IMG/VR virus record: IMGVR_UViG_3300030406_003399
Location: 7,556-46,167 of that record
DNA length: 38,612 bases
DNA from: a virus
Strand: one strand, 5' to 3'
Each line of letters starts with the position of its first letter. Position 1 is the stretch's first letter. A model generated the notes under the pieces. That model worked only from the letters and a program-made list of their open reading frames with translations. It did no database searches and was not told where the DNA came from. Of the stretch, positions 14,136-38,249 are shown piece after piece. The position numbers and the translations under genes were made by a program.

Positions 14136-17100
14136 ATGCCTGAAATAAAACATACTTTTATAGGTGCGAAGATGAACAAGGACCTTGATGAAAGACTTGT
14201 TCCTAACGGTGAATATAGAGAAGCTAACAATATACAAGTTAGAACTACTGACACTGATGCTGCTGGTACTGCTCAAAATATAAAGGGTAATACTCAGGTA
14301 GGTTCTTTTAGAGAAGAAACAAATCCTGAAACTCAAGAAAAAACAAGAACAGTAGGTAGTGTTAAAGATGAAAAAAATGACAAGATATATTTCTTTCAAG
14401 CTGCACCACCGGTTGGAGAACTAGCTTTGCAAAATGTTGGTGGAAATGATAATACTGACATTCATGTGTTTACAGACTCTATTATTGAGCAAGATGTTTA
14501 TGGAGGTTCTGTTCCTGTATTTATAGATGAACACACAATTGTTTGTAGAGCTAAAGAGGCTTTTAATTTCGAACTTCAAGATTTTGTTATACCATCTATA
14601 GGTAATAACACAGAGAATACTCATTTTCATATGTTAAGAATTACAGATCTTACACTTATAGAAAAAGTAAGAGTTGGTATGAAGGTTGAGATATTTGATA
14701 GCTCTAATACAAATCGAACTCCTAATTTAATAATTAGAGATATAGCTGTACATGAAAATGGAACATTTTTAGTATTTCACGCTGGTATCGCAAAAAATAT
14801 AGGAATACAAGGTTTAATACAAGCTGATAATGCTTACGTTAAGTTTACTGCTCCTAAGGTTTTAAACTTTGATTATTCTAAAAAAGTAACAGCTATAAAT
14901 GTTATTGATAGATTATTATTTTGGAGTGATGGTGCTAACGAACCTAAAAAAATTAATATTGATAGGTCGAAAGCTGGTACACAACCTTTGACTGTAGGTG
15001 GAGAAGAGTATGTTATAAACGGTGACTTTTCTGAAGATATAACTATAAACATTAATTCAACGAATTTACCTGCAAATGGTTGGGCTGTTACAGGTGGTCT
15101 TAATGGTGGTTTTTCTACAACAGGTAGTGGAACTTCTGAGTCAGATATAGTAACACCTAGTGTTTATAATTCAGAAACAGATACTATAACAAATAGCGAT
15201 GGAACTCCGCCTGGCCTTATACCTGGAAAACTATATCTAAATAAAGTACAGCACTTTAATCCTGCTAATCATGTTAACAATGGTTCAGTAAGGCGAAACG
15301 TTTCTTTAACACCAGGTGTAACATATACATACTCTTTTGATTATAATGTTATATCTGGTACTTTAAAATCTGATTTAAATGGTGCTACAAATACAGATGT
15401 TAACTTAACTGGAACTGGTGTATATTCATTAAGCTTTACTGCTGCAACATCAACTTTAACAATAATTTACTACGCAAACACATCAGATTCATCAAATCCT
15501 GATATTAATGTAACAGCTTATATAGATAATGTATCTGTTAAAGAAGCGACACCTTCTACATCATACAAACACACAAAGCTATTTGTTAAAAATCCAAAAG
15601 ACATAGCGTCTGGAACTTTTATACCAGTTACAGATTTGGCTGTTTATAATAATGAAGGTGATTCTATAGACGATAATATTAAAGAAGAACATATAACTGT
15701 TATTAGAAAAGCTCCAACAGTAGCACCATCTTTAATATTAAACGAAACAGATAGAGGTGAAGGAAACGCAACTTCATATACAACTGATAGTTTTTTTGTT
15801 TCTCCAGATTCACAAGCTATAACATCTACTGTAAGCGTAGGAGATATTCGTGTTTTTACTGATACTAGTTTTGAATCAACAATATATAGAGTAAACGATA
15901 TATTATTATTTACTTCTATATATACAGATGCTACAATTGATTTTGAAGAAGAAATTGGTATTGATTGTAAATTTATATCTTATTTAGATGCAGATCAACA
16001 ACAAGTAACTCAAGCTACTAATACTATTAAGGTTGAAATTATAGGATTTTCAGGTTCAGGTGTTGAGCAAAGTTTAGATAATTTAACAGCTGATGTAAAC
16101 CAATGGGAAATTACTTTAAAACAAAAAGATCCATTATTTGAACTTAAGTTAGGTAGGTTTTCTTGTAGATATAAATATGAAGACGGAGAGTATTCTTCAT
16201 TTGGGCCATTTTCAGATATAGCTTTTTTACCTGGATTTTTTAATTATCAAGCTAGAAATGGTTATAACGTTGGTATGAAGAACAATGTTAGAGAAATTAT
16301 ACTAAAAGATTTTATACCATTTAAAACTATACCGTTAGATGTTTGTGGTGTTGATATATTATATAAACCTACTAACTCTGCTAATTGTTTTGTTGTTAAA
16401 TCTATAGAAAGAGGTGTTGATGCAGAGTGGGAACTTTTTACGCCAAATACAAATAATCCAACTCAAAAACTTTCTGGTCAGTTAAGTATAACATCTGAAG
16501 CTATACACACTGTGTTGTCAGAAGATCAAGTACTTAGAACTTGGGATAATGTTCCTAGATATGCTCAAGCTCAAGAAATAACAGCTAACAGACTTTTATA
16601 TGGTAATTATGTTCAAGGTTACGATATACAACTACCTGTTTCTATAACTCAAGAAGTAGTTAGCGAAAGAATAGATCAAATAAAGTCTCCTAATAAATCT
16701 TTAAAAACTATAAGAGATTATAAGTGGGGTGTTGTATTTGGTGATAAATATGGTAGAGAAACACCTGTATTTACATCTAGCTATTCAGCTGGTTATACTG
16801 ATAACTTCAGTGCATTAACTGGAGATGTTTCTTTAGATAAAAAGTTTTGTGAATTTAAAAATCATTTTAAAGTAAAACAACAATGGACCAACCCTGTTAA
16901 TAGTAATAATACACCACCTGATTGGGCTGAGTATGTTAAATACTATGTTAAAGAGTCTAGTAATGAATATTATAACTTAGTTTTGAATAGGTGGTACTAT
17001 GCAGACGAGTTTCAAACAACAGCTTGGTTGTCTTTTCAATCAACAGATAGAAGTAAGTTAGATGAAGAAACTTATTTAATTTTAAAAACAGAAAATGGAA

Positions 17101-20100
17101 CTCAAAAAGCTATTACTACAGAGGCTAGATATAATATAATAGCTATAGAAAACACTGCACCTGATTTTATAAAAACTAAAAATTTATCAATTGGAAGTGT
17201 AGTTGCAAGTCCAGGTGACAACGGAACTGGATCATCTATTTGGTCTAGTGGTAATGGTGCTACTTCTACTCAAACTCCACCAGATTTATTAATAGCACCG
17301 GGAGAAAATGGTCGTTTAATATCTGTGGCTACAAACGTTTGGCTAGGCTTATTTGGTTTAAATGCTGATGGTACAGAAGTAGAAAAAGACACAAAGATAA
17401 GTCTTAGAATTAGAGGAGAAGATCAAACCGGTGTCCCAAAATACACTAGATGGACAGAAGTTACTAACTGGAATTACGCAACAGCTGATGTTACTCAAGG
17501 TGGTTCTGTAGAATTTTTTAATATATATTACGCTGATACACTCGGTGATGAAGCTAACATGTTTCAAAGATTTGTAGATGATGTTGATAATAATTACACT
17601 GATACTGTAATTGGTTTAACTTATTATATTGAGTTTAAAAAACAAATAACAGAGAACAAGCCGGAGTTTGATGGTAGATTTTTTGTTAAAGTTGAAGTTG
17701 ATAGTAATTTAGAAACATTTGTTTTAAAGAAAACAAACGCAGACCAACAGTACATACAACAAGGTATTTTTAATGTTGATTACGTTGAGTCAGAGTCTAC
17801 AAACTCTGCAGTATCTGGTGATAAAGCTGGTGAAACGTGGAACTTTGGAGAAGGTAATGGCTGGTGGTTTAACGCTTTTGATATAGTTGATGATTTTGGT
17901 TATTTAGATAATGGTGTTCAATTTGAAGATGGTAGTGCAAATATTGATCAACTAGCCCTTAATACTAATGCTAATTTAAATGGTGGGTCTCCAATTAAAT
18001 GGAAGTGGGAACAAGATGGTAGTCAAACTTCTGGTGGTGGTGGTCCAATGACAGGTGGTACGTGGCAAGGTAGTAGCAATTCTAATACAGAAGCATTTTC
18101 TTTAGCGTCTTTTGAGTTTGGTTATCAATTTGGAGGATATCCACTTGGATTTACTGGTGATATAATTCCACCTTCACCATCAGAAGGTCTTGCTGGTGGT
18201 TTTGCTTTTTATTGTTGGAGACAACAAACTATAGATTTTTGGACTTCTAGAAAATCATCAGTTGGAAGTAGACCATTTTTAGATAAAGCTGCTATAGCTG
18301 GTACTAAAGTATCTAGTTATCAAGGAGCTGGAAGCGTATTACAAGTTGGCACTATGACTATTGGTAATCAACAGGATCAAAAATCTACTGGTCTTGATGC
18401 TGGTAGTATAGATAGTTCAGTTGCTGAAGGTAATGCTGTTCAAGTTGGAGCTCCTTCAGTTGGACTTGGTAGAATGTGTTTAGCTGTTTGTGGTTATGAC
18501 AGTATAGACGATTTAAATCAAGGTGATAGAGTTTTTATGCAAGAGATGGGAACACTTGGAACTTTATTTAGATTTGCTGCTGATCAAGATAATGTTTATA
18601 GAGTTTTATCTGTAGAAAACTATGTTAATCCAGCTAATAATACTAAATGGCATAACTATTACGAAAACATACAAATACAATCAGATAATAGCAATAATAA
18701 TAATAGAATTGGTATTAGAATTAATTTTAGAAAAGTAGATGAAAATTTAATGACAACAAGTGAAGGTATTGACGTAAATACTTTTGATCCTAGAGGTTTA
18801 GTTCGTCATGATGGTACAGAAGCTTTTAAAATAGAGATTCTTAGAAATGCCGATGTTGGTGGAGATCAAATAGTTTTTGAAGAAGATTTATCTGTTTTTG
18901 AAACAGAACCAAAAGAAGATGTAGATTTAGATATATATTACGAAGCATCAAATGCTATACCTATAATACTAAATGAAGAAAATATAAATAACTTTTCACC
19001 AATAGGTTGTGGTATTACTGTAGAGAGACTAAGTGAAGATAGTGTTATAACAGCTCCTTTACCTGGCGCTCAAACTACAGACATAATAAATCAACCAGCT
19101 CATCAAGTAACAGACTTAATAGCAAAACCTAGAATATTTAACGAAGATCTTTCTAGTGATTTAATTGGCGAATTAAATTTGCCAACAAATAGTGATGGTA
19201 CTCAAGAGTTTGGTATTGGCGATCCTATAATAGAAATAAAAAATTTAAACGCGAATGGTGATTTTGTTGATTATGCTCATGGTATATACGTTGGTGATAC
19301 TATAGTTTTTCATCATAAAAACGGCATGAAGACCAGATCTAAAGTAACTGGTTTTTACGAGAAAAAACCTATTAATCAAAGCGGTAATGTTGTTACAAAT
19401 GTTTATGCTCCAAGAGAGTTTTTAGAAAAAACTATTCAAGCTATACCTAACGATCTTGGTGCTAGTTCTGTGATTGAAACAGATGCTTGGTTTCCATATG
19501 CTGGTACTTTGTGTAATAAAGTTAATTTTGTAGACAGTGTTTTAGCTGGTGATTTTGTTGCTGGTGAATATCAATTAGTTGAGTATGTTCAACTTGATGC
19601 TAATGATTTAGAAGTTGCAGATAGTAGAAGAAACGCGCCACCAGGTATAGTTATTAATTTAGTTTCTACAGATGATTCTGATAATGTTGATGGTGTAGAG
19701 CTAACTAGTTCTACTGCTACACCTTTTTATTTTCAAACTAGTGCAGGTGTTAATCAAACAAGAAGTGAATTTGAAACATCTAATGTTAACGGTATTAAAT
19801 TTAAATGTAAGTTTTTAAAAATAACAGACGAAGCATCACCTGGTTCTACTGATGGTCATTATTCTATAAGCAGAGATGTTTGGAAACAACCTGTAGACTT
19901 AAATTGGTTTAACTGTTACTCATATGGAAATGGTGTTGAGTCCGATAGAATTAGAGATTCATTTAATGCGCCAAGAATAGATAACGGTGTTAAAGTTTCA
20001 ACAACATTTTCTGGTTATAAAGAAGAACAAAAACCAACAGGACTCATATACTCAGGGCTTTATAATTCTACATCAGAGTTAAATAGTCTTAATGAGTTTA

Positions 20101-21212
20101 ACATGTCTCAAAAAATAACTAAAGATTTAAATCCTACTTATGGCTCTATACAAGCTTTAAAAACTAGAGATACAGATGTTGTTGTTTTCACAGAAGATAA
20201 AGTGTTGAAAGTTTTGTCAAATAAAGATGCTTTGTTTAACGCTGATGGTAACCCACAGTTAACAGCTACAGAAAGAGTTTTAGGTCAAGCTATACCTTTT
20301 GTAGGTGATTATGGAATATCTAAAAATCCAGAGTCTTTAGCAACAGATCAATATAGGATGTACTTTGCTGATGCGCAAAGAGGTGCTGTATTAAGATTAT
20401 CTATGGACGGTTTAACACCTATATCTAATGTTGGTATGAAAACTTATTTTAGAGAAAACTTAAGATATAATAAGTTTTTATTAGGTACATTTGATACTGT
20501 TAGCGGTGAATATAATTTAACAATAGATAAATCTTATTCGACAGCTGATTATAATAATAGTAGTTTATTTCCAGATTCTATATGGGAAGAGTATGGTAAT
20601 TTAAACTCTGATTTAGCGACTGCTGGAATAACTACTGTTAGTGCATTAAGAACTCATTATCTTGATTATGGACAATATGAAAAAAGAAAACCATTTTCAA
20701 CAAGCGTTAGCTACAAACCTGTAACAGTTTCTTTCAGTGAAGAATCAAAAGGTTGGGTTAGTTTTAAATCTTTTGTTCCTGAAGCAGGTGAATCTGTTGC
20801 TGGTTGTTATACAACAGCTAGTAAAGACAAAATATGGAAACACTATACTAGTAGTAATTATAATAATTTTTACGGCGTTCAATATGAGTCTGATATAACT
20901 GTTTTGTTTAACGACAATCCTGGTTTAGTTAAGTCTTTTAAAACTGTTAGCTATGAAGGTTCTCAAGGTAACGTAGAGCAAAACCTAGCTGACACAGATG
21001 AGTTTTATAATTTAACTAATATAAAAGGTTGGCAAGTAGAGCTAATTGAAACAGATAAGCAAAGTGGAAGTGTTAATGAGTTTATAGAAAAAGAAGGTAA
21101 GTGGTATAATAAAATAAGTGGGCTCGCAACTACAATAAGTAATTTAGATACTGGTGAGTTCACTGTTCAAGGTATTGGTAATCCAGTTATTACTCCAGTG
21201 TATAATTCATAA
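14136..21212 (+). CDS. Giant tail hub / stabilisation protein (P22 gp10/T7 gp12-like) with inserted modules
   Basis: 2,358 residues. The N-terminus FIGAKMNKDLDERLVPNGEY is the hallmark of tail stabilisation or muzzle proteins in podoviruses ('G-x-M-N-K-D-L-D-E-R-L-V-P-N-G-x-Y-R-x-A'). Further gp10/gp12-like segments are SRYK-type FSCRYKYEDGEYSSFGPFSD (about 678-697), ITANRLLYGNYVQGYDI (about 815-831) and a late propeller block near 1990-2110 (DTDVVVFTEDKVLKVLSNKD). Inserted into this frame are a CBM4/9-like jelly roll (about 290-475, ending YIDNVSVKEATP) and a short helical 'NPDL-HYxxYGxxE' module (about 2143-2188). Usual gp10/gp12 proteins have 470-800 residues, so this copy likely also carries host-binding functions. 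Confidence 0.75.
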   Translation: MPEIKHTFIGAKMNKDLDERLVPNGEYREANNIQVRTTDTDAAGTAQNIKGNTQVGSFREETNPETQEKTRTVGSVKDEKNDKIYFFQAAPPVGELALQNVGGNDNTDIHVFTDSIIEQDVYGGSVPVFIDEHTIVCRAKEAFNFELQDFVIPSIGNNTENTHFHMLRITDLTLIEKVRVGMKVEIFDSSNTNRTPNLIIRDIAVHENGTFLVFHAGIAKNIGIQGLIQADNAYVKFTAPKVLNFDYSKKVTAINVIDRLLFWSDGANEPKKINIDRSKAGTQPLTVGGEEYVINGDFSEDITININSTNLPANGWAVTGGLNGGFSTTGSGTSESDIVTPSVYNSETDTITNSDGTPPGLIPGKLYLNKVQHFNPANHVNNGSVRRNVSLTPGVTYTYSFDYNVISGTLKSDLNGATNTDVNLTGTGVYSLSFTAATSTLTIIYYANTSDSSNPDINVTAYIDNVSVKEATPSTSYKHTKLFVKNPKDIASGTFIPVTDLAVYNNEGDSIDDNIKEEHITVIRKAPTVAPSLILNETDRGEGNATSYTTDSFFVSPDSQAITSTVSVGDIRVFTDTSFESTIYRVNDILLFTSIYTDATIDFEEEIGIDCKFISYLDADQQQVTQATNTIKVEIIGFSGSGVEQSLDNLTADVNQWEITLKQKDPLFELKLGRFSCRYKYEDGEYSSFGPFSDIAFLPGFFNYQARNGYNVGMKNNVREIILKDFIPFKTIPLDVCGVDILYKPTNSANCFVVKSIERGVDAEWELFTPNTNNPTQKLSGQLSITSEAIHTVLSEDQVLRTWDNVPRYAQAQEITANRLLYGNYVQGYDIQLPVSITQEVVSERIDQIKSPNKSLKTIRDYKWGVVFGDKYGRETPVFTSSYSAGYTDNFSALTGDVSLDKKFCEFKNHFKVKQQWTNPVNSNNTPPDWAEYVKYYVKESSNEYYNLVLNRWYYADEFQTTAWLSFQSTDRSKLDEETYLILKTENGTQKAITTEARYNIIAIENTAPDFIKTKNLSIGSVVASPGDNGTGSSIWSSGNGATSTQTPPDLLIAPGENGRLISVATNVWLGLFGLNADGTEVEKDTKISLRIRGEDQTGVPKYTRWTEVTNWNYATADVTQGGSVEFFNIYYADTLGDEANMFQRFVDDVDNNYTDTVIGLTYYIEFKKQITENKPEFDGRFFVKVEVDSNLETFVLKKTNADQQYIQQGIFNVDYVESESTNSAVSGDKAGETWNFGEGNGWWFNAFDIVDDFGYLDNGVQFEDGSANIDQLALNTNANLNGGSPIKWKWEQDGSQTSGGGGPMTGGTWQGSSNSNTEAFSLASFEFGYQFGGYPLGFTGDIIPPSPSEGLAGGFAFYCWRQQTIDFWTSRKSSVGSRPFLDKAAIAGTKVSSYQGAGSVLQVGTMTIGNQQDQKSTGLDAGSIDSSVAEGNAVQVGAPSVGLGRMCLAVCGYDSIDDLNQGDRVFMQEMGTLGTLFRFAADQDNVYRVLSVENYVNPANNTKWHNYYENIQIQSDNSNNNNRIGIRINFRKVDENLMTTSEGIDVNTFDPRGLVRHDGTEAFKIEILRNADVGGDQIVFEEDLSVFETEPKEDVDLDIYYEASNAIPIILNEENINNFSPIGCGITVERLSEDSVITAPLPGAQTTDIINQPAHQVTDLIAKPRIFNEDLSSDLIGELNLPTNSDGTQEFGIGDPIIEIKNLNANGDFVDYAHGIYVGDTIVFHHKNGMKTRSKVTGFYEKKPINQSGNVVTNVYAPREFLEKTIQAIPNDLGASSVIETDAWFPYAGTLCNKVNFVDSVLAGDFVAGEYQLVEYVQLDANDLEVADSRRNAPPGIVINLVSTDDSDNVDGVELTSSTATPFYFQTSAGVNQTRSEFETSNVNGIKFKCKFLKITDEASPGSTDGHYSISRDVWKQPVDLNWFNCYSYGNGVESDRIRDSFNAPRIDNGVKVSTTFSGYKEEQKPTGLIYSGLYNSTSELNSLNEFNMSQKITKDLNPTYGSIQALKTRDTDVVVFTEDKVLKVLSNKDALFNADGNPQLTATERVLGQAIPFVGDYGISKNPESLATDQYRMYFADAQRGAVLRLSMDGLTPISNVGMKTYFRENLRYNKFLLGTFDTVSGEYNLTIDKSYSTADYNNSSLFPDSIWEEYGNLNSDLATAGITTVSALRTHYLDYGQYEKRKPFSTSVSYKPVTVSFSEESKGWVSFKSFVPEAGESVAGCYTTASKDKIWKHYTSSNYNNFYGVQYESDITVLFNDNPGLVKSFKTVSYEGSQGNVEQNLADTDEFYNLTNIKGWQVELIETDKQSGSVNEFIEKEGKWYNKISGLATTISNLDTGEFTVQGIGNPVITPVYNS

Positions 21213-24028: not shown

Positions 24029-24826
24029 ATGAGTGTTTTAAATATTATGTCAATAGTACAAAATGCAGTAGCAACTGGAACGGCAGCAGCATCAGCTGGA
24101 GCAGCATCAGGTGGTGGTGGTTTTATGCTTGGTTTTAAAATGCTTGCAGATCTTCTTCAAAAACGAAGAGAAGTTGAGCGTCAATTAAAAATTCAACTAA
24201 ATAAAGAAAAAGAAGCTAGAAAAGAAGTTGAAAGATATAGAGGTATATATCAAGGTGTTAATATATCTAATCCATATTCTAACTTAACAAATCCTTTTGA
24301 AGGTATTAAACTAAACTTAACAGCTGGCGCTGAAGTTAGTAGAGATCAGTTTCAAAGATCACAAGCAAACACATTAGCTGATTTTAAAGCTGGTAGCAGC
24401 AGTAGTGGTATAGCTCAAAGAGTTAAGTTACTTTCTCAAATGGGTATGGATGCTGCTCAAAGGTCTGCTGCTAGTATACAGAATATTGATCCACTTATGC
24501 AAAGACAAGAGGCTAGAATAGATCAACTACAAAGATCTGGTAGAAATGTTTCTGCAATGTTTGAAGCTAAAAAGCTTGAAAAAGCTATGGGTGATCAAAT
24601 TAAAGATATTAAGTTTTCAGATGCTAGACTAAAAGGAGCTTTACAAAGAGAAAGAAACATGGCGAAATTTATGAGTAATCAATTTTTTGGTAGAATGCCT
24701 AGTGGTATATCTGATGAATATAAAGATTTATTTAAAAATCAAAATAAATTTTATACAAGCGCAAGCGAAAGAAATAGGATTCTTGGTATTAGTAGTGATG
24801 CTACAAGTAGTCAAACAAATAATTAA
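24029..24826 (+). CDS. Internal virion (ejection) protein B, paralogue of the preceding gene
   Basis: 265 residues. The N-terminus has an Ala/Gly-rich hydrophobic stretch (VATGTAAASAGAASGGGGFM, 14-33) suited to membrane insertion, followed by a basic coiled coil (KRREVERQLKIQLNKEKEAR). It shares with the upstream gene SNPYSNLTNP (80-89), RSQANTL (110-116), AAQRSAASIQ (142-151) and GRNVSAMFEA (171-180) at nearly the same residue numbers, showing a tandem duplication with divergence. It probably sits inside the capsid around the portal and enters the cell with the DNA. The C-terminal 60 residues (FFGRMPSGISDEYKDLF) are unique to this copy. Confidence 0.6.
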   Translation: MSVLNIMSIVQNAVATGTAAASAGAASGGGGFMLGFKMLADLLQKRREVERQLKIQLNKEKEARKEVERYRGIYQGVNISNPYSNLTNPFEGIKLNLTAGAEVSRDQFQRSQANTLADFKAGSSSSGIAQRVKLLSQMGMDAAQRSAASIQNIDPLMQRQEARIDQLQRSGRNVSAMFEAKKLEKAMGDQIKDIKFSDARLKGALQRERNMAKFMSNQFFGRMPSGISDEYKDLFKNQNKFYTSASERNRILGISSDATSSQTNN

Positions 24827-24832: not shown

Positions 24833-25801
24833 ATGAGTAATATAAGTCAAATAGATATAGATAATATTTTAGATTACAACTTTGATACTAGTGTTGAAAA
24901 CTGGTTTAAAAGAACTGGTGATGTTACTGAAACAGAGATACAAAAAAGAGAAGAAAATTTAAAGGTTCTTCAAAAACAATATTTAGAAGAAGAAGAAAAA
25001 GCAACTAGTGGCCAAGATAAACAAAATATATTAAGTAAGTATCAAAGACACATGCTAGATGCAAGATCTAATGACGATAATTCTATAGAAATAAGAGATC
25101 AACTCGCATTTGTAAATGGTAATCCATCGTTAACTGGTAACTCTTGGAAAGAATTTAAAAAAAGTCCTGTTGGTCAAGAGATGGCTCAGATTATGGATGG
25201 TAGTAAAGAGTTAACTTACGATGAAAAAAACAATGTACATGGCTACGAAATACAAGGTCAAGTTCTTTCTTTAGAAGATATAAGAAGAATAATAGAAATG
25301 CACACTATGGATAACTCTAGTAAAAACGTTCTTGCTGGTGTTATGGAATATGCTCAAACACTAGGCTCTTTTGAAGACGCTGGTGAGTTAAATACTTTTG
25401 ATATAGCAACTAAAATCAGAAATGAGGTTGTTGAAAAAGGTAATATAAATTCTTTAATAAATGATAATCACGTTTTAACAGAGGGTGGTAGCTTTAAACA
25501 AGATTTATTAAACAGACTTCAAGGTATGAAGTACGAAGATGTTGGAATAACTGAAGACATGTTAAACAACATAGATAAAAATTTAGAAGCGGTTAAAATA
25601 TCTGACGGTATAACTAAAGATGAAGCTGAGTTAATAGCAAATGAATTATTGAAAGACGATAAGTTAACAAAAGATTATTTAACTAATTATTTCACTCAAC
25701 ATATAAAAGATCAATACAATTATATGTATGGTGAAAAACAAAAAGCTAGAGAACAAGGAGCTTTAAATAATATAGAAAACTATAAACAAGGTTCTTTATA
25801 A
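24833..25801 (+). CDS. Helical internal virion protein candidate
   Basis: 322 residues, mainly charged helices with no catalytic motif that I recognise. It opens ISQIDIDNILDYNFDTSVEN, has a coiled coil at about 40-65 (ENLKVLQKQYLEEEEK), LSLEDIRRIIEMHTMD near residue 145 and a C-terminal helix with IKDQYNYMYGEKQKAREQGA. Six bases separate it from the preceding paralogue pair, and the giant polyvalent gene follows, so it is most likely a core or ejection protein. No peptidoglycan hydrolase signature is visible. An assembly chaperone for the giant protein is an alternative. Confidence 0.5.
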   Translation: MSNISQIDIDNILDYNFDTSVENWFKRTGDVTETEIQKREENLKVLQKQYLEEEEKATSGQDKQNILSKYQRHMLDARSNDDNSIEIRDQLAFVNGNPSLTGNSWKEFKKSPVGQEMAQIMDGSKELTYDEKNNVHGYEIQGQVLSLEDIRRIIEMHTMDNSSKNVLAGVMEYAQTLGSFEDAGELNTFDIATKIRNEVVEKGNINSLINDNHVLTEGGSFKQDLLNRLQGMKYEDVGITEDMLNNIDKNLEAVKISDGITKDEAELIANELLKDDKLTKDYLTNYFTQHIKDQYNYMYGEKQKAREQGALNNIENYKQGSL

Positions 25802-25832: not shown

Positions 25833-28800
25833 ATGGAAGATAATATTTATGTTCTGTCTGATGGTAGAGTAAGAAGAGTACCAGCAGATCAGGACCAAGC
25901 ATTTCAAACAGAATTAAAAGATAAAGGTTTAACGGCTGTAATACAATCTGATATGTCGGGAAACCAAATCAGCTCTATGAAAGACGCGAGCATAGAGCAG
26001 AAAGAAGAAGCGTCAAATCTAGAGTTGGATCAAACTCAAATCAATCAAAAAAAAGATACGGAATTACAATCGGTAGATGGTTCTTTGGAGCCACCTATAA
26101 CTAGTGAAATACCTGAAATAGACCCATGGCAAAGTTTTAAAAACAATTTATCTAACTCTTTAGAAATGGTTGGAGATGTTAAAGAGTTTTGGTTTTTAGA
26201 AGGTTTTGGTAACAAGTCTTATCAAGAAGTTGCTGAAGAAGGAAACTTAGGCGCTAGGTCAGGTTTAAGTATAGCTAGTACATTAATATGGGAAAGTATT
26301 TTTGGTAGAGAAAAGTTAAAAAAATATGTTGAAAAAAATCCTAATTTTTTACAAGCCGGAACTTCTGATTCAGAAATATTTCAAAAAACTATTGAAAATT
26401 TTGAAAAAGAAAGAGAAGATAGAAAACAAACTATGACTTTTAAAGAAGCTGATAGTCTTGCAGATTATATGTCTGTTGCAGCTGGTGCCGTTGTAAATGC
26501 CGGTGGTAGCGTTGTTTATAATTTAGGAACTCTTGGTACTGGATTTTTTATGGATTTTGCTTCAGATAATTTCATTGAAGCAAATAAAATTAAAGCTAAA
26601 TCAAAAGGTAAGACATTAGATCAACTGTTAAAAGATGACGAAGCTGATGTTGCAGCTCCAATTAAAATAGCAGCTTTTCAAACAGGTTTAGAATTATTTG
26701 CTGTAGGTAAAATTTTAAGACCATTTGGTGGTGGTAAAACTATTGCAAGAAAAATTGCTAAAAAAATATCTAATAGTAAAGCAGCAAGAATCGCTTTAGA
26801 TATTTTTTCAACAGGTAATGTAGAAGCTGTAACTGAAGGTGTTCAATATGGTCTAGAGTATTATAATAAAGAATTAGCAAAAGCTAAATCTGAAGGAAAA
26901 GATATTAATGATTTAGCTACAATAGTTGACGGTATGCTTAGTGATGAAGGTCTTGAAAATGCGGCACAAGGTTTTTTTGGTGGTGCTGGATTAAGAGGTG
27001 CAGGTTATTCTGCTAAAGCTGCTAGCCAAATTAGAAAAAATGTAGATGAATTAGATATTGAAAAAGATTTAAATAGTTTAGTTAGTTTAAGAAAGAGTTA
27101 TAACAATACTAAAGATGAAGATGTTAGAGCTGGTTTAGAAGTTTCTATATCTAATATTGAAAAAAATATAAAAAACAAAATAAAAAAAGGTAATGAAATA
27201 TATAATTCATTATCTGAAGAAGGCATATCAGAAATAGAAAAACTAGGTGACTTATCTGATATGACAGCATATAGAATAAACCAATTAAATGAAAAACTTG
27301 AAAACAATAGTATATCTAAACAACAACACCAAGTAGCAATAGAAGGTTTAACAATTAAGTTTAATGAATATAGAAATAAAATATTATCTACTATTAATAC
27401 TAAAAAAGTTAAAAGCTTAATTGAAGAAGGTGATTTAAAAGGTAGTATTTCAGAGGTAAGTTCTTCTGAAATAGAAAACATGAATTTAAAAGATGATAAA
27501 GGTAATGATATTTCTAAACAAGCTGCTGGTAATTTTGGTTTTATAAAACAGTTTAAAGATGGTAGTTTTGAAATATTTTTAAACAAAGACAAGCCAGCTG
27601 TTGGTACTGCTGCTCATGAATTTTTACATGCTGTTTTGTTTAGTACTTTAGATAAAAATAAAAATATACAAAATGAATTAGCATCTTCGCTTTTAGATTA
27701 TACATCTACACTAAAAAGTGAAGGTGATCAAAATTTTGTTAATAGAATAAACGCTTATAAAGATAGCAAGGCTCTTGGTGAAGAAGTAATTACTGTTATG
27801 TCTGAATCTACATTAGACGGTAGTTTAAAATATAATGAAGGATTTTTTACTAAAATAGGTGATTCTGTTAGAAGATTTGTTAAAGGTACATTAGGTATAG
27901 AATATAAGTTTGACACTGGTAGAGATGTTTATAATTTTATAAAAGATTATAACAACACTATTAAAACAGGTAAGGTTAATAAAGCTATAATAAAGGTTGC
28001 TAAAGAAGGTGCTAGAGGTAAGCTTGTTGATAAAGCTAAAAAAGGTGAAGACACTAAACAAGATGTTGTTATAAAAGAATCTAAAGACGCTAAACCAGCT
28101 GTAGATAATCTAGCTGTTGATCCAAAAACTAAAAAGAACTATACACAATCAGAGTGGAATAGAGTTGGCGCTAAGCGAGCTATTGATACATTAAAAAAAC
28201 GAGGTTTAATGGACGGTTTAATAGCCTCTAAATATAAAATAAAGCTTGACCAAAACGAACTTCAATCTTTTGTTGCTAATGTTCTTGGATCTACAGAATT
28301 TATTAATATGATTAATCGTTTTAATAGAGGTAAACGTAATACACCAGATGAAAATGATAGTTTATTTGGTTATATACAGGGCCAATTAAGATTTAGAGCT
28401 GATGATGTATTTAAAGAAGCTGAAAGAGGTAAGGTGCCTAAAGGTACTAGAGTTAGAGAGCTAGACGCTAGAACACCTGAAGGTCAACAAAAAGTACAGC
28501 TAGAAGATACTGGTGATACAACTATAGAGCGTATAGATGAGCAAGAAATAAATTTAAGAGATGAGATAACTTATCAAACAAAACCAGAAGTTCAAGAGAG
28601 AAAGTCTACATTTAGAAGAGAAATAGGTTTAACTAGAAAAGGTAAAGTATTTAGAGAAGTTAAAAAAGCTTTACGTGTAGCTGAGTCTATAGTTAATCCT
28701 AAAAAGTTTTTAAATACATTTGAAAAAACTACATCTGACTCTTTGTTTGAATTTATGAAAACATTTTTTCCAGATACTAATAGTATGGTTAAGTATAGAG

Positions 28801-31800
28801 TTGCAATACTAGAGTCTATACCAGTAACAACACTTACGCAAATGCAAAAGATGTTGCCTGAAAAAATATTTGTAAAAAGTTATGGCAGGTTAACAAACAA
28901 AGCTCAAATAGCAGACTTTGTTAATGGTACTAACATGACAGGTAAAAATCCTGGCAAAAAGAAATTACTACCTAAAAGTCTTCTTGATGATAGCGATGTT
29001 AGTAAAAAGAAAAGAGCTGCAGGTGTAGCTGTATATGAAAGATTAAAACCAACATCGACTCAATGGAAGAATTATCTTGAAGCAACAGATAGAGGTAAAA
29101 GACAAACTGCTGCAAGGTCTGGTACTAAAGGTAATAATAGAATAAAAATACTAGAAGAAGCTGCTAAAGCTATAAGTAAAGATGCTACACCAGAAATTTT
29201 AACATCTGATTTTTTACAAGACTATATACAAGAAAAAGGCTTGCAAAACAGTTTAACTGTAGAGCAAGTTAAAAAAGAGATACTTAAAACTATTGATAGG
29301 CCCGCTGATTTAAAGTTTAGTGTTGATCCCAAGGTTCAAGCTGAAAACTTTAAAAAAGCTGCAAACAAAAAACCAAACGATATTGTTAGCGACAGAGGCG
29401 TAACAAACTTAGAAGTAGTTAATAAAATACAAGAATATAAAAGCGCTAAAAGTGGTAAGATAAAATCTAGAACTATAGTTGATTTTATTAAAAGCTCTAA
29501 ACTATCAAGAGATATTAAAAAACATATGGGTGGATTTTTATCTACCCACCCAAAATATATACCTTATTTTCAAGACTCAATGACAGGTGGCTATGATAAT
29601 GGTTTGTTTGGTATTAAGAATATTTTTTATAGTATAGTAGGTATTAAAGATACTAATATAAAAAAAGATTTACGTAGAGAAAAGTATAGCAAAACAGGTG
29701 GTTTACTTGATGTTAATAAAATGAATAAGTTTAAAAATAATCAAGGTAAACACATAGCATCTAATAAGGCTAGAATAGATTTTTTAGAAGGATTAATTAA
29801 AGATATGTACACATATGTTAAAGCAAATCCAGAATCTAAGCCAGCTATGGTTATGTTTTTTAAAGATGGTTCTAAACATCAAAACCACGTATTAAGATAC
29901 TTAGCGCCTATTGTTGGTGCGCCTACAAATACTAAAGGTAAGTTTTTAGAAGTAAAAATAAAAGAAGAACATGGCTACCCTCAAAATCAAGTAAATACTA
30001 TAATATTAGATTTATTATTAAACGATAATACTAATATTAAAAGTATTGATGACGCTGTAAAAGTTTTTAGATCTTCTTATTCACAGTGGGGTTTAATTGA
30101 AACTCATGATAATCAAATAGACGATGCTAAACTAACAACGTCTATGCCTGAATATTTTTATAATGATATAGTTCCTAGAATAATAAAAGGTGAATTTGAT
30201 AACTTACCGCAAGGTATATTAGGCCCTATTATTAGATATATAGAATCTGGCGTGCCAATAGGTAGTTATTATCTTTTTGAAGTAAATAAAACTGTAGCAG
30301 AATACTTTGGTGTTAATGTTAAAAATGCGAGCGATCTTGACATGGAGCATTTAGCACCTATACAAAACGAGTTAATTAAACAAATTTTATTAGGTAATAT
30401 AACAAAGGCTAAAGCTAAACAGCAAATGAAAAACGTTGTTGGCATTGGACACAAGAATACTGTAGCTGAGAACAAAACAAATAACAATATAATTGACGCA
30501 TTTAACAAGCAAGCTAAATTTATTAAAAAACAAAATGAAGAAATACAAAGAGATTTAGAAAAGCGTGGATATAAATTCTTGTCAAGTAAAGATGGAACTG
30601 TCAAAGGACAAACTCCATCTGAAATGATAAGAATAATAGAAGAAGACTTAAGGAAAAGAGGTTATACATTTAGTGGCACAGTGAGTTCTAGTGAGCCTAG
30701 TAGAATAAGAAGGGGTATGTCAACTTTTGATTTTGATGAAACACTTATTATTGATGGCGAAAATTTTGTTGTAGCAACAGATCCTAAAACAGGTGAGACT
30801 ATTAATATAATGTCTGGTGATTGGCCTATAAGAGGACCAGAGCTAGCTGCAGCTGGTTACACTTTTAATTTTGATGATTTTGTAAATGTAAGAGGTGGAG
30901 TTGAAGGTCCTTTATTACAAAAGATGAGAAACCAAATACAAAAATATGGTGTAAATAATGTTTTTGTTTTAACAGCTAGACCACAGACAGCAGACTCTGC
31001 TATACGTGGTTGGTTAAAATCTAAAGGTATTGATATACCTATGAAAAATATAACTGGTTTAGGTGATAGTAGAGGTGATGCTAAAGCTGAGTGGATGTTA
31101 GAAAAGTTTTCTGAAGGCTATAATGACATGTATTTTGTTGATGATGCTTTGCCTAACGTTAAAGCTGTTAAGAAAGTTTTAGAACAACTAGATGTTAAAT
31201 CTAAAGTAGTTCAAGCTAAAATAAAATTTAGTGCAACAGCTAGCCAAGAGTTTAATAAAATAATAGAAGAATCTAAAGGAGTTAAAGCTGATAGGGTTAT
31301 ATCTCAACAAGAAGCTCTTAAAATGGGTAGAGGTAAAAACTGGTTTAGAATATTTGTACCACCGTCAGCTGAAGATTTTAAAGGTTTATTGTATAGATTT
31401 TTAGGTAAAGGTAGACAGGGTGATAGACACGCAGCTTGGTTTAAACAAAATTTATTAGATCCTTTTGCCAAAGGTATTAGAGCTTGGAATACTTATAAAC
31501 AAAATATAGCTACAGAATACAAGACTCTAAAAAAGAAAATGCCTCAAGTTAAAAAACTATTAAATAAAAAAGTAGGTAACACTGTATTTACTGTAGACTC
31601 TGCTATTAGGGTTTACTTATGGGATAAAGCTGGTTACGATATACCAGGTATAACACCTGAAATAAAAGCTAAGTTAATAAAGTATGTTAATGATAATCCT
31701 GAAGTTCAGTCTTTTGCAGACGCTTTAAGTGTTATTAGTAGAGTTAAAGAAGGTTATTCTCAACCAAGCGAAAACTGGTCACTACAAAGTATAACCACAG

Positions 31801-33368
31801 ACTTAGATAATATTGTAAACAAAGTAGGTAGAAAAGAATTTTTAAGAGAATTTTTAGATAATGTTGAAGCTATATTTACGCCTGACAACATGAACAAGAT
31901 AGAAGCTTTATATGGTGTAGAGTTTAGAGAAGCTTTAGAAAATATATTATTCCGTATGGAAAACGGTACTAATAGATTACAGAGTAATGATAGAGTTACT
32001 AATGCTTTTTTAGGTTGGATAAATGGTTCTATAGGTGCTATAATGTTTTTTAATACAAGATCAGTTCTTCTTCAAACATTATCAACTGTTAACTTTTTAA
32101 ACTTTAGTGATAACAATGTTTTTAAAGCTGCTAGAAGATTTGCTAATCAAGTACAATTTTGGAAAGACTTCGCTATGTTATTTAACTCTGATCAATTAAA
32201 ACAACGTAGAGCTGGTTTGCAAACAGATGTTTCTGCTTCTGAGTTAACAAAAACTTTTTCTGAAGGTGGAACAACAATGATTGATAAAGCTAATTCGGTT
32301 ATTAAGTATTTATTACAATTAGGTTTTACACCTACACAACTAGCTGATAGTTTTGCTATAGCTTTAGGTGGTGCTTCGTTTTATAGAAATAGATTTAACA
32401 CTTATAAGAAAAGAGGTTTGTCTGATGCTAAAGCAAAAGAACAAGCAATGCTTGACTTTCAAGAGATAGCTGAAGAAACACAGCAGTCATCAAGAGAAGA
32501 TTTAATATCACAACAACAAGCTAGTACATTAGGACGTTTAATACTTGCTTTTCAAAACGTTACAATGCAGTATACTAGGTATACTAAAAAAAGATTATCT
32601 GACCTTGTTAACAGAAGGCGTATAAAAGGATATACACAAATACAAAGTGATATGTCTAATATTTCTGCTATAATATATTATGGTGCAGTTCAAAATATTA
32701 TATTTGGAGCGCTACAGTCTGCTTTAATATTTGTTTTGTTTGGTAAAGACGATGATGAAGATGAGATCGATGAAAAAGTAGAAAGAGTTGCTAACGGTGC
32801 GTTAGACTCTTTGCTTAGAGGTACTGGTATATTTGGAGCTATAATAGCTACTATAAAAAACGTAGCATTAAGATATCAAAAAGAAAAACAAAAAGGCTGG
32901 GGTAGAGATGATGGTAGAGTTATACTTGAGGCATTGCAACTTTCACCACCTATTGGTAGTAAGTTTAGGAAAATATATAGTGCTATGAAAACAGAGCAGT
33001 ATAATCCAGGTGTTAGTAAAGAAATAGGTTTTCGTATAGAAAATCCTAACCTAGTTGCTTTAGCAAACGTTATTGAAGCGACAACTAATCTTCCTGCAGC
33101 TAGAATACAAAGAAAAGCTAACAACGTAGAAGAAGCTGTAACAGGTCAACACAGTTTGTTACAGCGTGTGGCTTTATTTTCAGGTTGGTCATTGTGGGAT
33201 ATAGGTGCTAAAGATGAAGAGCTTGAAGCTGCTAAAAAAGCTGCTAAAGAAAAAATAAGAAAACAAAAACAAAAAGGTAAAGTTAGATGTACTGCTATTA
33301 AAAGTAGTGGCGGTAGGTGTAAGAATACAACTAGAAATAAAAACAAAAGATGTTACGCTCATCAATAA
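25833..33368 (+). CDS. Giant polyvalent internal virion protein (HExxH peptidase, HAD domain, membrane segments, Zn-knuckle tail)
   Basis: 2,511 residues. The N-terminal third has hydrophobic segments (DYMSVAAGAVVNAGGSVVYN) and VEAVTEGVQYGLEYYNKELA. A zinc-metallopeptidase motif TAAHEFLHAVLF (H595-E596-H599) follows. A HAD phosphatase-like domain shows all main motifs: FDFDETL (D1633/D1635), LTARPQTA (T1714) and FVDDALPN (D1770/D1771). A conserved C-terminal module begins KNWFRIFVPPSAEDFKGLLY (about 1833), carries membrane-type segments (SIGAIMFFNTRSVLLQTLS, IIFGALQSALIFVLFG) and FQNVTMQYTRYTKKRLSDLV, and ends in a Cys3His knuckle (C2486, C2496, C2507, H2510). Large multi-enzyme proteins injected with phage DNA are known as polyvalent proteins. 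No RNA polymerase DxDGD motif is present. It likely helps DNA entry and early takeover. Confidence 0.72.
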   Translation: MEDNIYVLSDGRVRRVPADQDQAFQTELKDKGLTAVIQSDMSGNQISSMKDASIEQKEEASNLELDQTQINQKKDTELQSVDGSLEPPITSEIPEIDPWQSFKNNLSNSLEMVGDVKEFWFLEGFGNKSYQEVAEEGNLGARSGLSIASTLIWESIFGREKLKKYVEKNPNFLQAGTSDSEIFQKTIENFEKEREDRKQTMTFKEADSLADYMSVAAGAVVNAGGSVVYNLGTLGTGFFMDFASDNFIEANKIKAKSKGKTLDQLLKDDEADVAAPIKIAAFQTGLELFAVGKILRPFGGGKTIARKIAKKISNSKAARIALDIFSTGNVEAVTEGVQYGLEYYNKELAKAKSEGKDINDLATIVDGMLSDEGLENAAQGFFGGAGLRGAGYSAKAASQIRKNVDELDIEKDLNSLVSLRKSYNNTKDEDVRAGLEVSISNIEKNIKNKIKKGNEIYNSLSEEGISEIEKLGDLSDMTAYRINQLNEKLENNSISKQQHQVAIEGLTIKFNEYRNKILSTINTKKVKSLIEEGDLKGSISEVSSSEIENMNLKDDKGNDISKQAAGNFGFIKQFKDGSFEIFLNKDKPAVGTAAHEFLHAVLFSTLDKNKNIQNELASSLLDYTSTLKSEGDQNFVNRINAYKDSKALGEEVITVMSESTLDGSLKYNEGFFTKIGDSVRRFVKGTLGIEYKFDTGRDVYNFIKDYNNTIKTGKVNKAIIKVAKEGARGKLVDKAKKGEDTKQDVVIKESKDAKPAVDNLAVDPKTKKNYTQSEWNRVGAKRAIDTLKKRGLMDGLIASKYKIKLDQNELQSFVANVLGSTEFINMINRFNRGKRNTPDENDSLFGYIQGQLRFRADDVFKEAERGKVPKGTRVRELDARTPEGQQKVQLEDTGDTTIERIDEQEINLRDEITYQTKPEVQERKSTFRREIGLTRKGKVFREVKKALRVAESIVNPKKFLNTFEKTTSDSLFEFMKTFFPDTNSMVKYRVAILESIPVTTLTQMQKMLPEKIFVKSYGRLTNKAQIADFVNGTNMTGKNPGKKKLLPKSLLDDSDVSKKKRAAGVAVYERLKPTSTQWKNYLEATDRGKRQTAARSGTKGNNRIKILEEAAKAISKDATPEILTSDFLQDYIQEKGLQNSLTVEQVKKEILKTIDRPADLKFSVDPKVQAENFKKAANKKPNDIVSDRGVTNLEVVNKIQEYKSAKSGKIKSRTIVDFIKSSKLSRDIKKHMGGFLSTHPKYIPYFQDSMTGGYDNGLFGIKNIFYSIVGIKDTNIKKDLRREKYSKTGGLLDVNKMNKFKNNQGKHIASNKARIDFLEGLIKDMYTYVKANPESKPAMVMFFKDGSKHQNHVLRYLAPIVGAPTNTKGKFLEVKIKEEHGYPQNQVNTIILDLLLNDNTNIKSIDDAVKVFRSSYSQWGLIETHDNQIDDAKLTTSMPEYFYNDIVPRIIKGEFDNLPQGILGPIIRYIESGVPIGSYYLFEVNKTVAEYFGVNVKNASDLDMEHLAPIQNELIKQILLGNITKAKAKQQMKNVVGIGHKNTVAENKTNNNIIDAFNKQAKFIKKQNEEIQRDLEKRGYKFLSSKDGTVKGQTPSEMIRIIEEDLRKRGYTFSGTVSSSEPSRIRRGMSTFDFDETLIIDGENFVVATDPKTGETINIMSGDWPIRGPELAAAGYTFNFDDFVNVRGGVEGPLLQKMRNQIQKYGVNNVFVLTARPQTADSAIRGWLKSKGIDIPMKNITGLGDSRGDAKAEWMLEKFSEGYNDMYFVDDALPNVKAVKKVLEQLDVKSKVVQAKIKFSATASQEFNKIIEESKGVKADRVISQQEALKMGRGKNWFRIFVPPSAEDFKGLLYRFLGKGRQGDRHAAWFKQNLLDPFAKGIRAWNTYKQNIATEYKTLKKKMPQVKKLLNKKVGNTVFTVDSAIRVYLWDKAGYDIPGITPEIKAKLIKYVNDNPEVQSFADALSVISRVKEGYSQPSENWSLQSITTDLDNIVNKVGRKEFLREFLDNVEAIFTPDNMNKIEALYGVEFREALENILFRMENGTNRLQSNDRVTNAFLGWINGSIGAIMFFNTRSVLLQTLSTVNFLNFSDNNVFKAARRFANQVQFWKDFAMLFNSDQLKQRRAGLQTDVSASELTKTFSEGGTTMIDKANSVIKYLLQLGFTPTQLADSFAIALGGASFYRNRFNTYKKRGLSDAKAKEQAMLDFQEIAEETQQSSREDLISQQQASTLGRLILAFQNVTMQYTRYTKKRLSDLVNRRRIKGYTQIQSDMSNISAIIYYGAVQNIIFGALQSALIFVLFGKDDDEDEIDEKVERVANGALDSLLRGTGIFGAIIATIKNVALRYQKEKQKGWGRDDGRVILEALQLSPPIGSKFRKIYSAMKTEQYNPGVSKEIGFRIENPNLVALANVIEATTNLPAARIQRKANNVEEAVTGQHSLLQRVALFSGWSLWDIGAKDEELEAAKKAAKEKIRKQKQKGKVRCTAIKSSGGRCKNTTRNKNKRCYAHQ

Positions 33369-35928: not shown

Positions 35929-36324
35929 ATGGAATTAGAAGTAATTAGATTTTCTAGTGGTACTGATAGTACTAATGGAATATTAATAGATAAAACAAAT
36001 AATAAATTTTTAGCATACACGCTTGAAGATGAATATAGAGATGAGAAAAAATTTGGCGAGACAAGAATACCTGAAGGAACTTACAAGTTGGGTTTACGCA
36101 AGGTTGGTGGCTACCATACAAAATATTCGAAGCGCTTTAGTGATATTCACATTGGCATGCTTCATGTTCTCAATGTTCCTAATTTTGAGTATATTCTTAT
36201 TCACTGCGGTAATACTGACGAACACACGGCAGGTTGTTTACTCGTCGGAGACTCGCAAGAAAATAACCAAATCACGACGAACGGTTTTATAGGTAAGTCA
36301 ACGCAAGCTTATAAAAGAATATAA
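35929..36324 (+). CDS. DUF5675-like protein; candidate peptidoglycan-acting lysis enzyme
   Basis: 131 residues matching the DUF5675 pattern by recall: FLAYTLEDEYRDEKKFGETR followed by IPEGTYKLGLRK ('I-P-x-G-x-Y-x-L') and the signature YILIHCGNTDEHTAGCLLVG (H92, C93, H99, G102, C103). The 'H-x-G-N ... T-x-G-C' signature resembles the active-site layout of L,D-transpeptidases, so the enzyme may act on peptidoglycan cross-links. Position at the head of the membrane and secreted genes that lead to the holin supports a lysis role, and I see no other endolysin. Base composition in its 3' half is richer in C and G at third positions than that of its neighbours. Catalysis is not proven. Confidence 0.6.
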   Translation: MELEVIRFSSGTDSTNGILIDKTNNKFLAYTLEDEYRDEKKFGETRIPEGTYKLGLRKVGGYHTKYSKRFSDIHIGMLHVLNVPNFEYILIHCGNTDEHTAGCLLVGDSQENNQITTNGFIGKSTQAYKRI

Positions 36325-36501: not shown

Positions 36502-37554
36502 ATGAAAAGATTAATTATATTATTACTAATGATAAGTACGGTTTGTACTTCTCAAATAAAAGACTTTTTTAAATACTCTACGTTCTATGCTTCAATGACA
36601 ACAGGTACTTCTTTTGTAGAGCAAGAAGATTATAGAGCTATTGGTAAAGGTTATGAAGACGTAACAGTTGTTAATCCTTATGATTACAACTTAACTATTG
36701 GTCTTCGTAAAATAGCTAGGTTTGATTATGAATATAAAGTAAAGACTTGGTACTATGGTACTGAAGATAACGTGGCTGATAACGTTACTATAGGTAACGC
36801 TAATGGTTGGGAGTATTTACTTAATTATTCTTTTATACGTGAGCGTGGTGAGAAGTTTAATAATCAAAACTTTTGGTTAAGATATTTAGGTGATAGCTAC
36901 GTAGCTAAAGCACAGTATGCAGATAATCAAAGAGTAAATTTAAAATACATGTCAACAGATCTTAGGTTTAGAGTTAATGTTGGCAACTGGGATTTAACAG
37001 CTGGTATTGTAGGTAGAATACACCCTGTGTACGGTGTTAATCCTATTAGAGACTTCTGGGTACCAGGATCTTCTAACTTTCAAGACATAGCCCAAGACTT
37101 TGGTTACGCTCCCGAACAATGGGTGCAAGGTTTTTACGTTGATCAGAACTGGTACGACGTTAGTAGTGGAGACTCTGTCCTACTCGCTACCTCAAACGCT
37201 GAGTTTTTTAATCACTACTTTGGTGAAGCTGTCGCTAGGTTTAACGAGCGTGAGCTTGATAAATTAGGTTTACAAAGAGAACTAAGTGCAGTCATTGGCG
37301 TTGCTTATTATAAGTACACTAATAAAATGTGGCTACATGCTTGGGCTAATTGCTTACCGATACATCACGGTTTAGATGAGTACTCATTTGAGTATGGCAA
37401 ACAAGATAATGATAATATAGAGTGGGATGCCGGTGTGGTGTTTGGTTCTAGATTAACTAAATCACTTGGTATGTTTGTTGAAGGAACACACCAAAGATAC
37501 TGGATGAAACCAGTATATGAAATTAAATTTGGCTTTAACTATTTAATATTTTAA
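36502..37554 (+). CDS. Predicted outer-membrane beta-barrel protein
   Basis: 350 residues. The N-terminus MKRLIILLLMISTVCTSQ is a signal peptide (basic start, hydrophobic core, small residues before Gln-19). The mature part alternates aromatic and polar residues in strand pairs (YDYNLTIGLRKIARFDYEYK, WLRYLGDSYVAKAQYADNQ, ELSAVIGVAYYKYTNKMWLH) and finishes in KPVYEIKFGFNYLIF, with the aromatic last residue typical of barrels inserted by Bam. It is co-oriented with lysis genes. A barrel made by a phage could disturb the outer membrane during lysis, block reinfection, or decorate the infected cell; the sequence does not decide. Short coordinates fit 12-16 strands. Confidence 0.65.
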   Translation: MKRLIILLLMISTVCTSQIKDFFKYSTFYASMTTGTSFVEQEDYRAIGKGYEDVTVVNPYDYNLTIGLRKIARFDYEYKVKTWYYGTEDNVADNVTIGNANGWEYLLNYSFIRERGEKFNNQNFWLRYLGDSYVAKAQYADNQRVNLKYMSTDLRFRVNVGNWDLTAGIVGRIHPVYGVNPIRDFWVPGSSNFQDIAQDFGYAPEQWVQGFYVDQNWYDVSSGDSVLLATSNAEFFNHYFGEAVARFNERELDKLGLQRELSAVIGVAYYKYTNKMWLHAWANCLPIHHGLDEYSFEYGKQDNDNIEWDAGVVFGSRLTKSLGMFVEGTHQRYWMKPVYEIKFGFNYLIF

Positions 37555-37556: not shown

Positions 37557-38249
37557 ATGAAGAAATATATTATAATACTATTTGCGTTTATTGGCTCGTT
37601 TGTTAATGCGCAAGGTTTTGATTTTCAAGCTTTATGTTTAGCTTGTGCTGAGCAAGAAGGTTTTTATTGTGGTGATGATCCAAGTAACTGGACACAGTAT
37701 TCACCTAACGGTTGTGTAGAAACAACCTGGATTAATGACGGTTGGGAAGACTGTTTAGATGCAGCAGATGAAAACGCTGAAGGACCAACGCTCGCAACAG
37801 AGTGTGGACCACCTACACCAATTGCTTGTGACACTGTTTTTATAACATTAACAGAGCTTGAGTTTATATTTGATACTATAGTTGAAACTGAATATATATA
37901 TAACATTGTTTTAGATACCGTAGAGATCGAAACTTTAGTTCCAGAATACATTTATATAACTGACACTGTGTTTGTTTACGAGGATGTATTAGATACATTG
38001 TTCGTTGATGTTGTTGAATATGTTGATGTAATAGTTTATGATACTGTTGTAGAAGTAGAATATGTAGAGTTTATAGAGTACATTACAGAGTATGTAGACT
38101 GTGATACTGGACTTCCTTGTAGCGTTAGCATTGAAGAACTTATAGATAAATCTAAGCGAAATAGTGTAATATATAATATTAATGGGCAGGCTATAAAAGA
38201 AAGAGAAGGTTTATATATAGAGAACGGTAAAATTTATAATAAAAAATAA
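37557..38249 (+). CDS. Secreted repeat protein with a type IX-like C-terminal tail
   Basis: 230 residues. A signal peptide (MKKYIIILFAFIGSFVNA, cut before Gln-19) is followed by a cysteine-rich domain (C27, C30, C38, C53, C66, C83, C91), then a strand-prone acidic region with six DT(V/I/L) units starting at residues 92, 106, 120, 136, 146 and 162. The tail SVIYNINGQAIKEREGLYIE, then NGKIYNKK, resembles the Bacteroidota 'xYNxxGQxVxxxxxGxYIxNGxKxxxK' C-terminal sorting domain of the type IX system. It lies two bases after the barrel gene and shares one base with the next gene. The product probably reaches the surface or medium of the infected cell. Its target is unknown. Confidence 0.65.
   Translation: MKKYIIILFAFIGSFVNAQGFDFQALCLACAEQEGFYCGDDPSNWTQYSPNGCVETTWINDGWEDCLDAADENAEGPTLATECGPPTPIACDTVFITLTELEFIFDTIVETEYIYNIVLDTVEIETLVPEYIYITDTVFVYEDVLDTLFVDVVEYVDVIVYDTVVEVEYVEFIEYITEYVDCDTGLPCSVSIEELIDKSKRNSVIYNINGQAIKEREGLYIENGKIYNKK

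Follow-up and report, generated by a model that had tools for sequence, protein, structure and literature searches.

A giant late-gene product of an apparently crAss-related phage combines zincin-like and HAD-like domains and is a candidate ejection protein

The window analysed here, a stretch of 38,612 nucleotides that spans positions 7556-46167 in a virus record of 46,167 bases, contains a gene for a giant protein in which the motifs of a peptidase and of a phosphatase are found on one chain, and it raises the question of what such a protein is and where it would act. The initial annotation had proposed a virion protein that, if ejected, would deliver several enzymes to the cell at once, and had made it, in a genome described as being without early genes, the main candidate for host takeover or for the recruitment of host replication. 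From the gene order, motif conservation and predicted folds reported below, we consider it probable that the giant is the third and largest protein of a podovirus-type ejection cassette and, at the same time, a large polyvalent protein carrying enzymes as cargo.

25833..33368, + strand: giant polyvalent protein gene, ATG start, 2511 aa, about 282 kDa

Genomic setting of the giant gene

The phage is marine and crAss-related. Its TerL shares 63% identity with the protein of Manatee Spring phage MW202828 and 46% with the Elemovirus one, its structural proteins recur in phages of Elemovirus, Pervagoviridae and Pachyviridae, which are its nearest isolates, and its tail contains the C-terminal muzzle domain of crassviruses (order Crassvirales).

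14136..21212, + strand: muzzle-like tail protein, 2358 aa, marking the tail gene cluster (PF25729, E 4.5e-9; phrog_14478, E 7e-115)
24029..24826, + strand: candidate gp14-like ejection protein, 265 aa, with a small-residue-rich (Gly/Ala-rich) N-terminal helix followed by a coiled-coil-like part
24833..25801, + strand: candidate gp15-like ejection protein, 322 aa, helical, directly upstream of the giant (from its position and the gene order in relatives)

The giant is the last gene of the late cluster, after the terminase, portal, structural protein and muzzle genes, and the largest and last of three consecutive genes that follow the tail genes. The same order, namely a small protein with an N-terminal helix, a mid-size helical protein and the giant, was found in relatives (22 loci inspected out of 65). 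A PHROGs search with the giant returned no gp16 or gp50 match. In isolates, the giants encoded at this position carry the annotation structural or virion structural protein (Flavobacterium phage elemoA gp21, 3694 aa; Cellulophaga phi38:1 gp101 and phi13:2 gp127), and neither phi38:1 gp101 nor phi13:2 gp127 carries an HExxH or a HAD motif.

The description of the genome as lacking early genes proved wrong, since the window covers 38.6 kb out of a fragment of 46.2 kb and since a relative with a 71-kb contig has genes for a class II RNR, a Toprim-DnaB primase-helicase, sigma-70, ERF, a PD-(D/E)XK nuclease and an ATP-dependent DNA ligase. Given these early genes, the giant is not the sole candidate for host takeover, and a specific role in recruiting host replication finds no support in the present analysis. 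No DNA polymerase A was detected in 19 records (the one containing the window and those of relatives), and two 71-kb relatives, both possibly incomplete, contain no ORF of more than 2000 aa beyond the muzzle and the giant. Clues to the host among genome contigs came from two metagenome bins only, Sphingobacteriales and Maricaulis, and are not decisive.

Several other genes were noted around these loci. A GroES-like protein is encoded before the terminase (3327-3905; phrog_13932, E 7e-15), and phage GroEL- and GroES-like genes were recognized by eye upstream of the window (L089:3657-5466). Downstream of the giant, two proteins have signal-peptide-like N-termini and no Pfam or NCBIfam match: the first (36502-37554) looks like an outer-membrane barrel, and the second (37557-38249) ends in YNINGQAIKEREGLYIENGKIYNKK, a stretch similar by eye to the C-terminal signal of type IX secretion. 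A DUF5675 protein (35929-36324; Pfam E 3e-26), perhaps lysis- or wall-related, is encoded in the same operon region. One relative (G003) encodes a staphylococcal-nuclease-like protein downstream of its giant (L090:4336-4740, - strand; PF00565, E 9e-14). The two ends of its 71-kb contig (L090-L093) bear similar, non-identical copies of DUF1064 and RNR genes, and these near-duplicate ends suggest a circularly permuted genome of ~70 kb in whose assembly two strains were combined.

Zincin-like and HAD-like domains on one chain

The two enzyme signatures reported by the initial annotation were confirmed, with HEFLH at residues 595-599 and a full HAD set between 1633 and 1771, which includes DFDETL (1633-1638), VLTAR (1712-1716) and FVDDALPN (1768-1775). 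Of 20,000 shuffled versions of the giant, 0.6% contained HExxH and 1.7% a HAD-like set of motifs in order, and in none did the terminal C3H described below occur; that the motifs are real rests more on their conservation in relatives, which is the stronger evidence, than on this rarity.

Relatives were obtained by a scan of marine viral contigs that yielded 224 candidates, of which the best 80 were kept; their giants measure 2135-4311 aa where no contig end cuts them. Counts for HExxH cover the 75 relatives whose N-terminus is present and alignable, and in all of these H595, E596, H599 and E651 are invariant, while the complete HAD set (D1633/D1635, T1714, K1751 and D1770/D1771) is found in 80 out of 80. 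The N-terminal sequence around the zincin is often just 15-30% identical among relatives, and the catalytic residues are the sole positions in this region common to every sequence, which argues for kept active sites and strong selection on both the zincin and the HAD. A search of about 50,000 annotated phage records with the giant gave zero matches at E 0.01; as the family is large in marine metagenomes (the 224 candidates came from one scan) yet unmatched in those records, domain names and a testable model should be useful for it.

27315..27977, + strand: zincin-like metallopeptidase domain, residues 495-715 (invariance in 75/75, AlphaFold2 order, Elemovirus gp21 profile match)
27615-27629, + strand: HEFLH, residues 595-599, zincin motif
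27783-27785, + strand: E651, third-ligand Glu, invariant in 75/75
30690..31232, + strand: HAD phosphatase-like domain, residues 1620-1800 (motif conservation in 80/80, AlphaFold2, DUF2608 and phrog_415 matches)

Structure prediction had been proposed beforehand as a check. Two pieces were modelled separately with AlphaFold2, residues 1320-2511 (57-sequence alignment, mean pLDDT 74) and residues 90-1281 (47-sequence alignment, mean pLDDT 69), and both models place the motifs in the expected secondary-structure order, canonical for HAD and zincin; together with the conserved motifs, this supports two or more predicted enzyme domains on one polypeptide. The zincin is predicted as a helix and three strands, then the HEXXH helix, then a helix with E651, at a pLDDT of about 80-93 (in model numbering, which is the residue minus 89: helix 407-443; strands 448-453, 480-484 and 490-495; HEXXH helix 503-517; Glu helix 559-573). 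This predicted topology fits the core of the polyvalent MPTases, composed of an N-terminal helix, a three-stranded sheet, the HEXXH helix and a later helix with Glu (Iyer et al, 2017, PMC5512222). The zincin profile also matched Elemovirus gp21 by hhalign (E 7e-7).

The HAD model resembles known HADs in that D1633, T1714 and D1770 each stand at the end of a strand and K1751 is on the helix that follows; the giant is thus predicted to carry motifs I-IV of the superfamily (DxDxT, T, K, DD) in order on a Rossmann-like fold. DUF2608 matched 36 of 36 HAD members and phrog_415 (phage ‘polynucleotide kinase’) 30 of them with weak E-values (best 1.2e-4), and with this reservation the domain leans to the phage ‘polynucleotide kinase’ phosphatases. 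Foldseek searches of the PDB with the whole models of both pieces gave no match at E <= 0.001; most matches were helical coincidences, those to HADs alone being interpretable. The highest probabilities belong to HAD-type structures, Pnkp1 (4xru; prob 0.97, E 0.4) and cytosolic 5'-nucleotidase III (0.90), and a deoxyribonucleotidase-like protein is also among them. A PDB sequence search with the HAD profile produced chance matches only.

In 23 of the 80 relatives, a P-loop kinase interrupts the HAD between motifs I and II, which are about 276 residues apart there vs about 77 elsewhere; the giant of the window has the HAD only. The inserted kinase displays the Walker A motif G-[GS]-A-G-S-G-K and matches AAA_33 (E 1e-10 to 3e-11) and Zeta_toxin (E 6e-10, over the cut-off) in Pfam, and phrog_505 polynucleotide kinase (E about 1e-5). 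In the comparison with PNK families, NCBIfam bacter_Pnkp gave an E of 0.02. With the HAD-kinase profile, a PDB sequence search returned weak kinase matches only, one of them Pnkp1. The acceptor motif of T4 PNK is DxxR. This motif was not seen in the aligned kinase-bearing relatives, all of which have D-I-[SA]-L, and owing to its absence we do not file the HAD/kinase as a Pnkp; a polynucleotide or nucleotide substrate is a hypothesis.

Modules outside the two enzyme domains

26445..27032, + strand: weakly hydrophobic helical N-terminal module, residues 205-400 (hydropathy; model with low to medium pLDDT)
28110..29552, + strand: variable middle region, residues 760-1240, with conserved islands P1047, G1064 and S1163; no family matched
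29790..30512, + strand: EHxxP domain, residues 1320-1560, with conserved E1379, H1380 and D1426; no Pfam family
31365..33227, + strand: all-helical C-terminal module, residues 1845-2465 (about 45-64% identity among relatives; fold common to phage polyvalent proteins)
33288..33362, + strand: putative zinc knuckle C-x10-C-x10-C-x2-H, residues 2486-2510, accessory (65/80 relatives)

The membrane segments assigned by the initial annotation are reduced to weak hydrophobicity: the most hydrophobic 19-residue windows (213-231, 273-291, 2055-2073, 2276-2294 and 2323-2341) have Kyte-Doolittle averages of 1.2-1.4, under the usual transmembrane cut-off, and hydropathy does not support true transmembrane helices. 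By eye, stretches resembling residues 205-400 occur in the Elemovirus and phi38:1 giants. Within the middle region, residues about 925-1160 have for the most part a pLDDT of around 90 or higher. From the sequence, residues 780-905 were at first read as sigma-region-2-like; this had no Pfam support and was dropped, as was a vWA-TerF match at 1313-1352, which was under its cut-off and confined to few members. In the EHxxP domain, predicted with a pLDDT mostly of 75-93, conservation over 75 sequences is 0.91 for E, 0.92 for H and 0.87 for D.

The C-terminal module is the best-conserved part of the giant. In a Foldseek search of BFVD with the C-terminal piece, four uncultured-virus proteins match closely (27-52% identity), followed by C-terminal fragments of many giant phage proteins (10-15% identity, E 4e-14 to 1e-4), several of the matches being named large polyvalent, ART-PolyVal or MuF-C; a ‘Structural protein’ of Tenacibaculum phage Gundel_1 also matches the model (E 4e-7). 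At the sequence level, the giant had no match to an LPD or polyvalent family in Pfam, these names being reached through the C-terminal fold instead, and the C-terminal profile gave no significant match to the Elemovirus, Manatee Spring, phi38:1 or phi13:2 giants. Since the predicted fold recurs at the C-termini of phage polyvalent giants, the module is probably one for delivery or packaging, common by fold to the polyvalent proteins, with exchangeable domains upstream. As for the terminal Cys3His knuckle, it is present in the giant as annotated and is not universal: about a dozen complete C-termini among the 80 relatives do without it, and the putative C3H is, by this comparison, dispensable.

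Delivery and possible functions of the giant

Gene position and fold relatives agree with the proposed virion role, and from them we infer that the giant is present in virions and ejected. It would be packed in the capsid and then enter the cell by way of the portal and tail, threaded through them before or with the DNA and together with its two partners, forming the inner part of the conduit and carrying the enzymes; the hydrophobic N-terminal region and the helical C-terminal module could have roles in packaging, in ejection and in association with the envelope or inner membrane. Ejection of the giant, if it takes place, would supply the cell with a peptidase and a phosphatase, and in many relatives also with a kinase, ahead of all phage gene expression, and would thus make a case, open to testing, for repair or counter-defence that is pre-formed and arrives with the genome.

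Known systems offer partial parallels. By gene order, the three genes resemble the T7 gp14-gp15-gp16 ejectosome (small membrane-type, medium helical and largest protein), whereas the transglycosylase domain of gp16 was not found in the giant, which is about twice as long. The ejected giant of N4, the vRNAP gp50, has an HExxH domain, about 110 kDa of C-terminal helices and two partners (PMC12633501), and the present protein is likewise a late-cluster giant with two candidate partners, a hydrophobic N-terminus, HExxH and a large helical C-terminus; in contrast, no RNA polymerase domain was found in it and its HExxH lies far from the C-terminal module. Crassvirus virions hold large cargo proteins inside (PhicrAss001 gp45-gp50; PMC10172136), and the related muzzle is a feature in common, as large cargo would be; in the two possibly incomplete 71-kb relatives, by contrast, no vRNAP-like giant was seen by ORF size, and one of them encodes a sigma factor. 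With the large polyvalent proteins (Iyer et al, 2017, PMC5512222), the giant shares several enzyme domains per chain, a zincin with HEXXH and a downstream Glu, a gene placed among the virion (late) genes and, by Foldseek, the helical C-terminal fold, but it has no sequence match to their catalogued LPD/PolyVal Pfam families, and the main text of that study mentions neither HAD nor a HAD with a nested kinase. Closer to the window, Elemovirus gp21 (YP_010108907, the 3694-aa protein above) and the MW202828 giant (3859 aa) occupy the same genomic place and contain HExxH, with a zincin profile match for gp21; they differ in that no DxDxT HAD motif was found and in that their C-terminal part is dissimilar by sequence. 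The MW202828 giant (L082:741-12320) has two HEFGH motifs, at residues about 1615 and 2500, and possibly two zincin domains.

A tail or scaffold structural protein that is not ejected, its enzyme motifs being fossils, would account for the same-position giants of some isolates that lack both HExxH and HAD; we regard this as very improbable, as the catalytic residues of the HAD are invariant and those of the zincin are alone in being conserved in every sequence of its divergent region. On the preferred reading of an ejected enzyme carrier, the zincin would most likely cleave the giant itself to free its domains, or a host protein, and polyvalent MPTases have been proposed mainly for self-processing, with host-protein targeting listed as an alternative (PMC5512222). 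That alternative, together with the lack of any muralytic domain found elsewhere in the giant, leaves some room for a zincin whose target during entry is the cell wall or host proteins instead of the giant, a reading that we nevertheless find rather doubtful. Its counterpart would be the third ejection protein of T7, the transglycosylase gp16, which acts on the envelope. The N4 vRNAP contains such an HExxH domain and is nonetheless packaged without processing, so that either role may apply to the zincin.

The HAD would most likely be a phosphatase for nucleic-acid ends or nucleotides, working in a quarter of the relatives with the inserted kinase. A polynucleotide kinase-phosphatase-like end-healer delivered with the DNA, restoring 3'-OH/5'-P for ligase sealing where phage DNA is nicked or anticodon nucleases have cut host tRNA, is a possibility that we advance tentatively: the phrog_415 and phrog_505 matches, the AAA_33 and zeta toxin matches of the kinase, the top-probability fold match to Pnkp1 with its weak kinase-profile counterpart, and the ATP-dependent DNA ligase of a relative all point to it, but the PNK-family E-values are weak and outscored by Zeta-toxin and AAA_33 for the kinase, DUF2608, which matches every HAD member, is not a PNK family, D-I-[SA]-L stands in place of DxxR, and the window's own giant is without the kinase. 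Over-cut-off Zeta_toxin matches could also mean action on metabolites, with the kinase using UDP-GlcNAc like zeta toxin and the HAD nucleotides or sugar phosphates, so that wall synthesis is disturbed or nucleotides are supplied. The nucleotidase fold matches of the HAD and a 52%-identical viral protein labelled UDP-N-acetylglucosamine kinase in BFVD are in line with this; such database labels are automatic, however, and a kinase within a phosphatase suggests opposite actions on one substrate kind, which makes the metabolite reading unlikely.

Returning to the ejected enzyme carrier, its cargo is of a known phage style, and the kinase built into a phosphatase in about a quarter of the relatives is new, in that we have not seen it described. 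T4 PseT and bacterial Pnkp1 similarly have a HAD phosphatase and a P-loop kinase on one polypeptide, but in tandem, whereas the relatives' kinase sits inside the HAD and lacks DxxR, and the window giant has the HAD alone. The nested HAD-kinase could represent a new way of arranging an enzyme for end healing or metabolite cycling. More speculatively, and with a chance that we rate as rather low, it could be a virion-delivered end-healing enzyme of new architecture in a widespread marine lineage, repairing nucleic-acid ends from the onset of infection (anti-restriction or anti-tRNA-cleavage), whose kinase was lost or swapped in the branch of the window. In a tree of the C-terminal module, the presence or absence of the kinase requires three changes, and the kinase-free branch of the window is nested within a mostly kinase-bearing clade, from which it likely lost the kinase or exchanged the module. 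Stand-alone relatives of the kinase are found in Pelagibacter phage HTVC008M and in Methylophilales phage Melnitz, in the latter beside baseplate genes.
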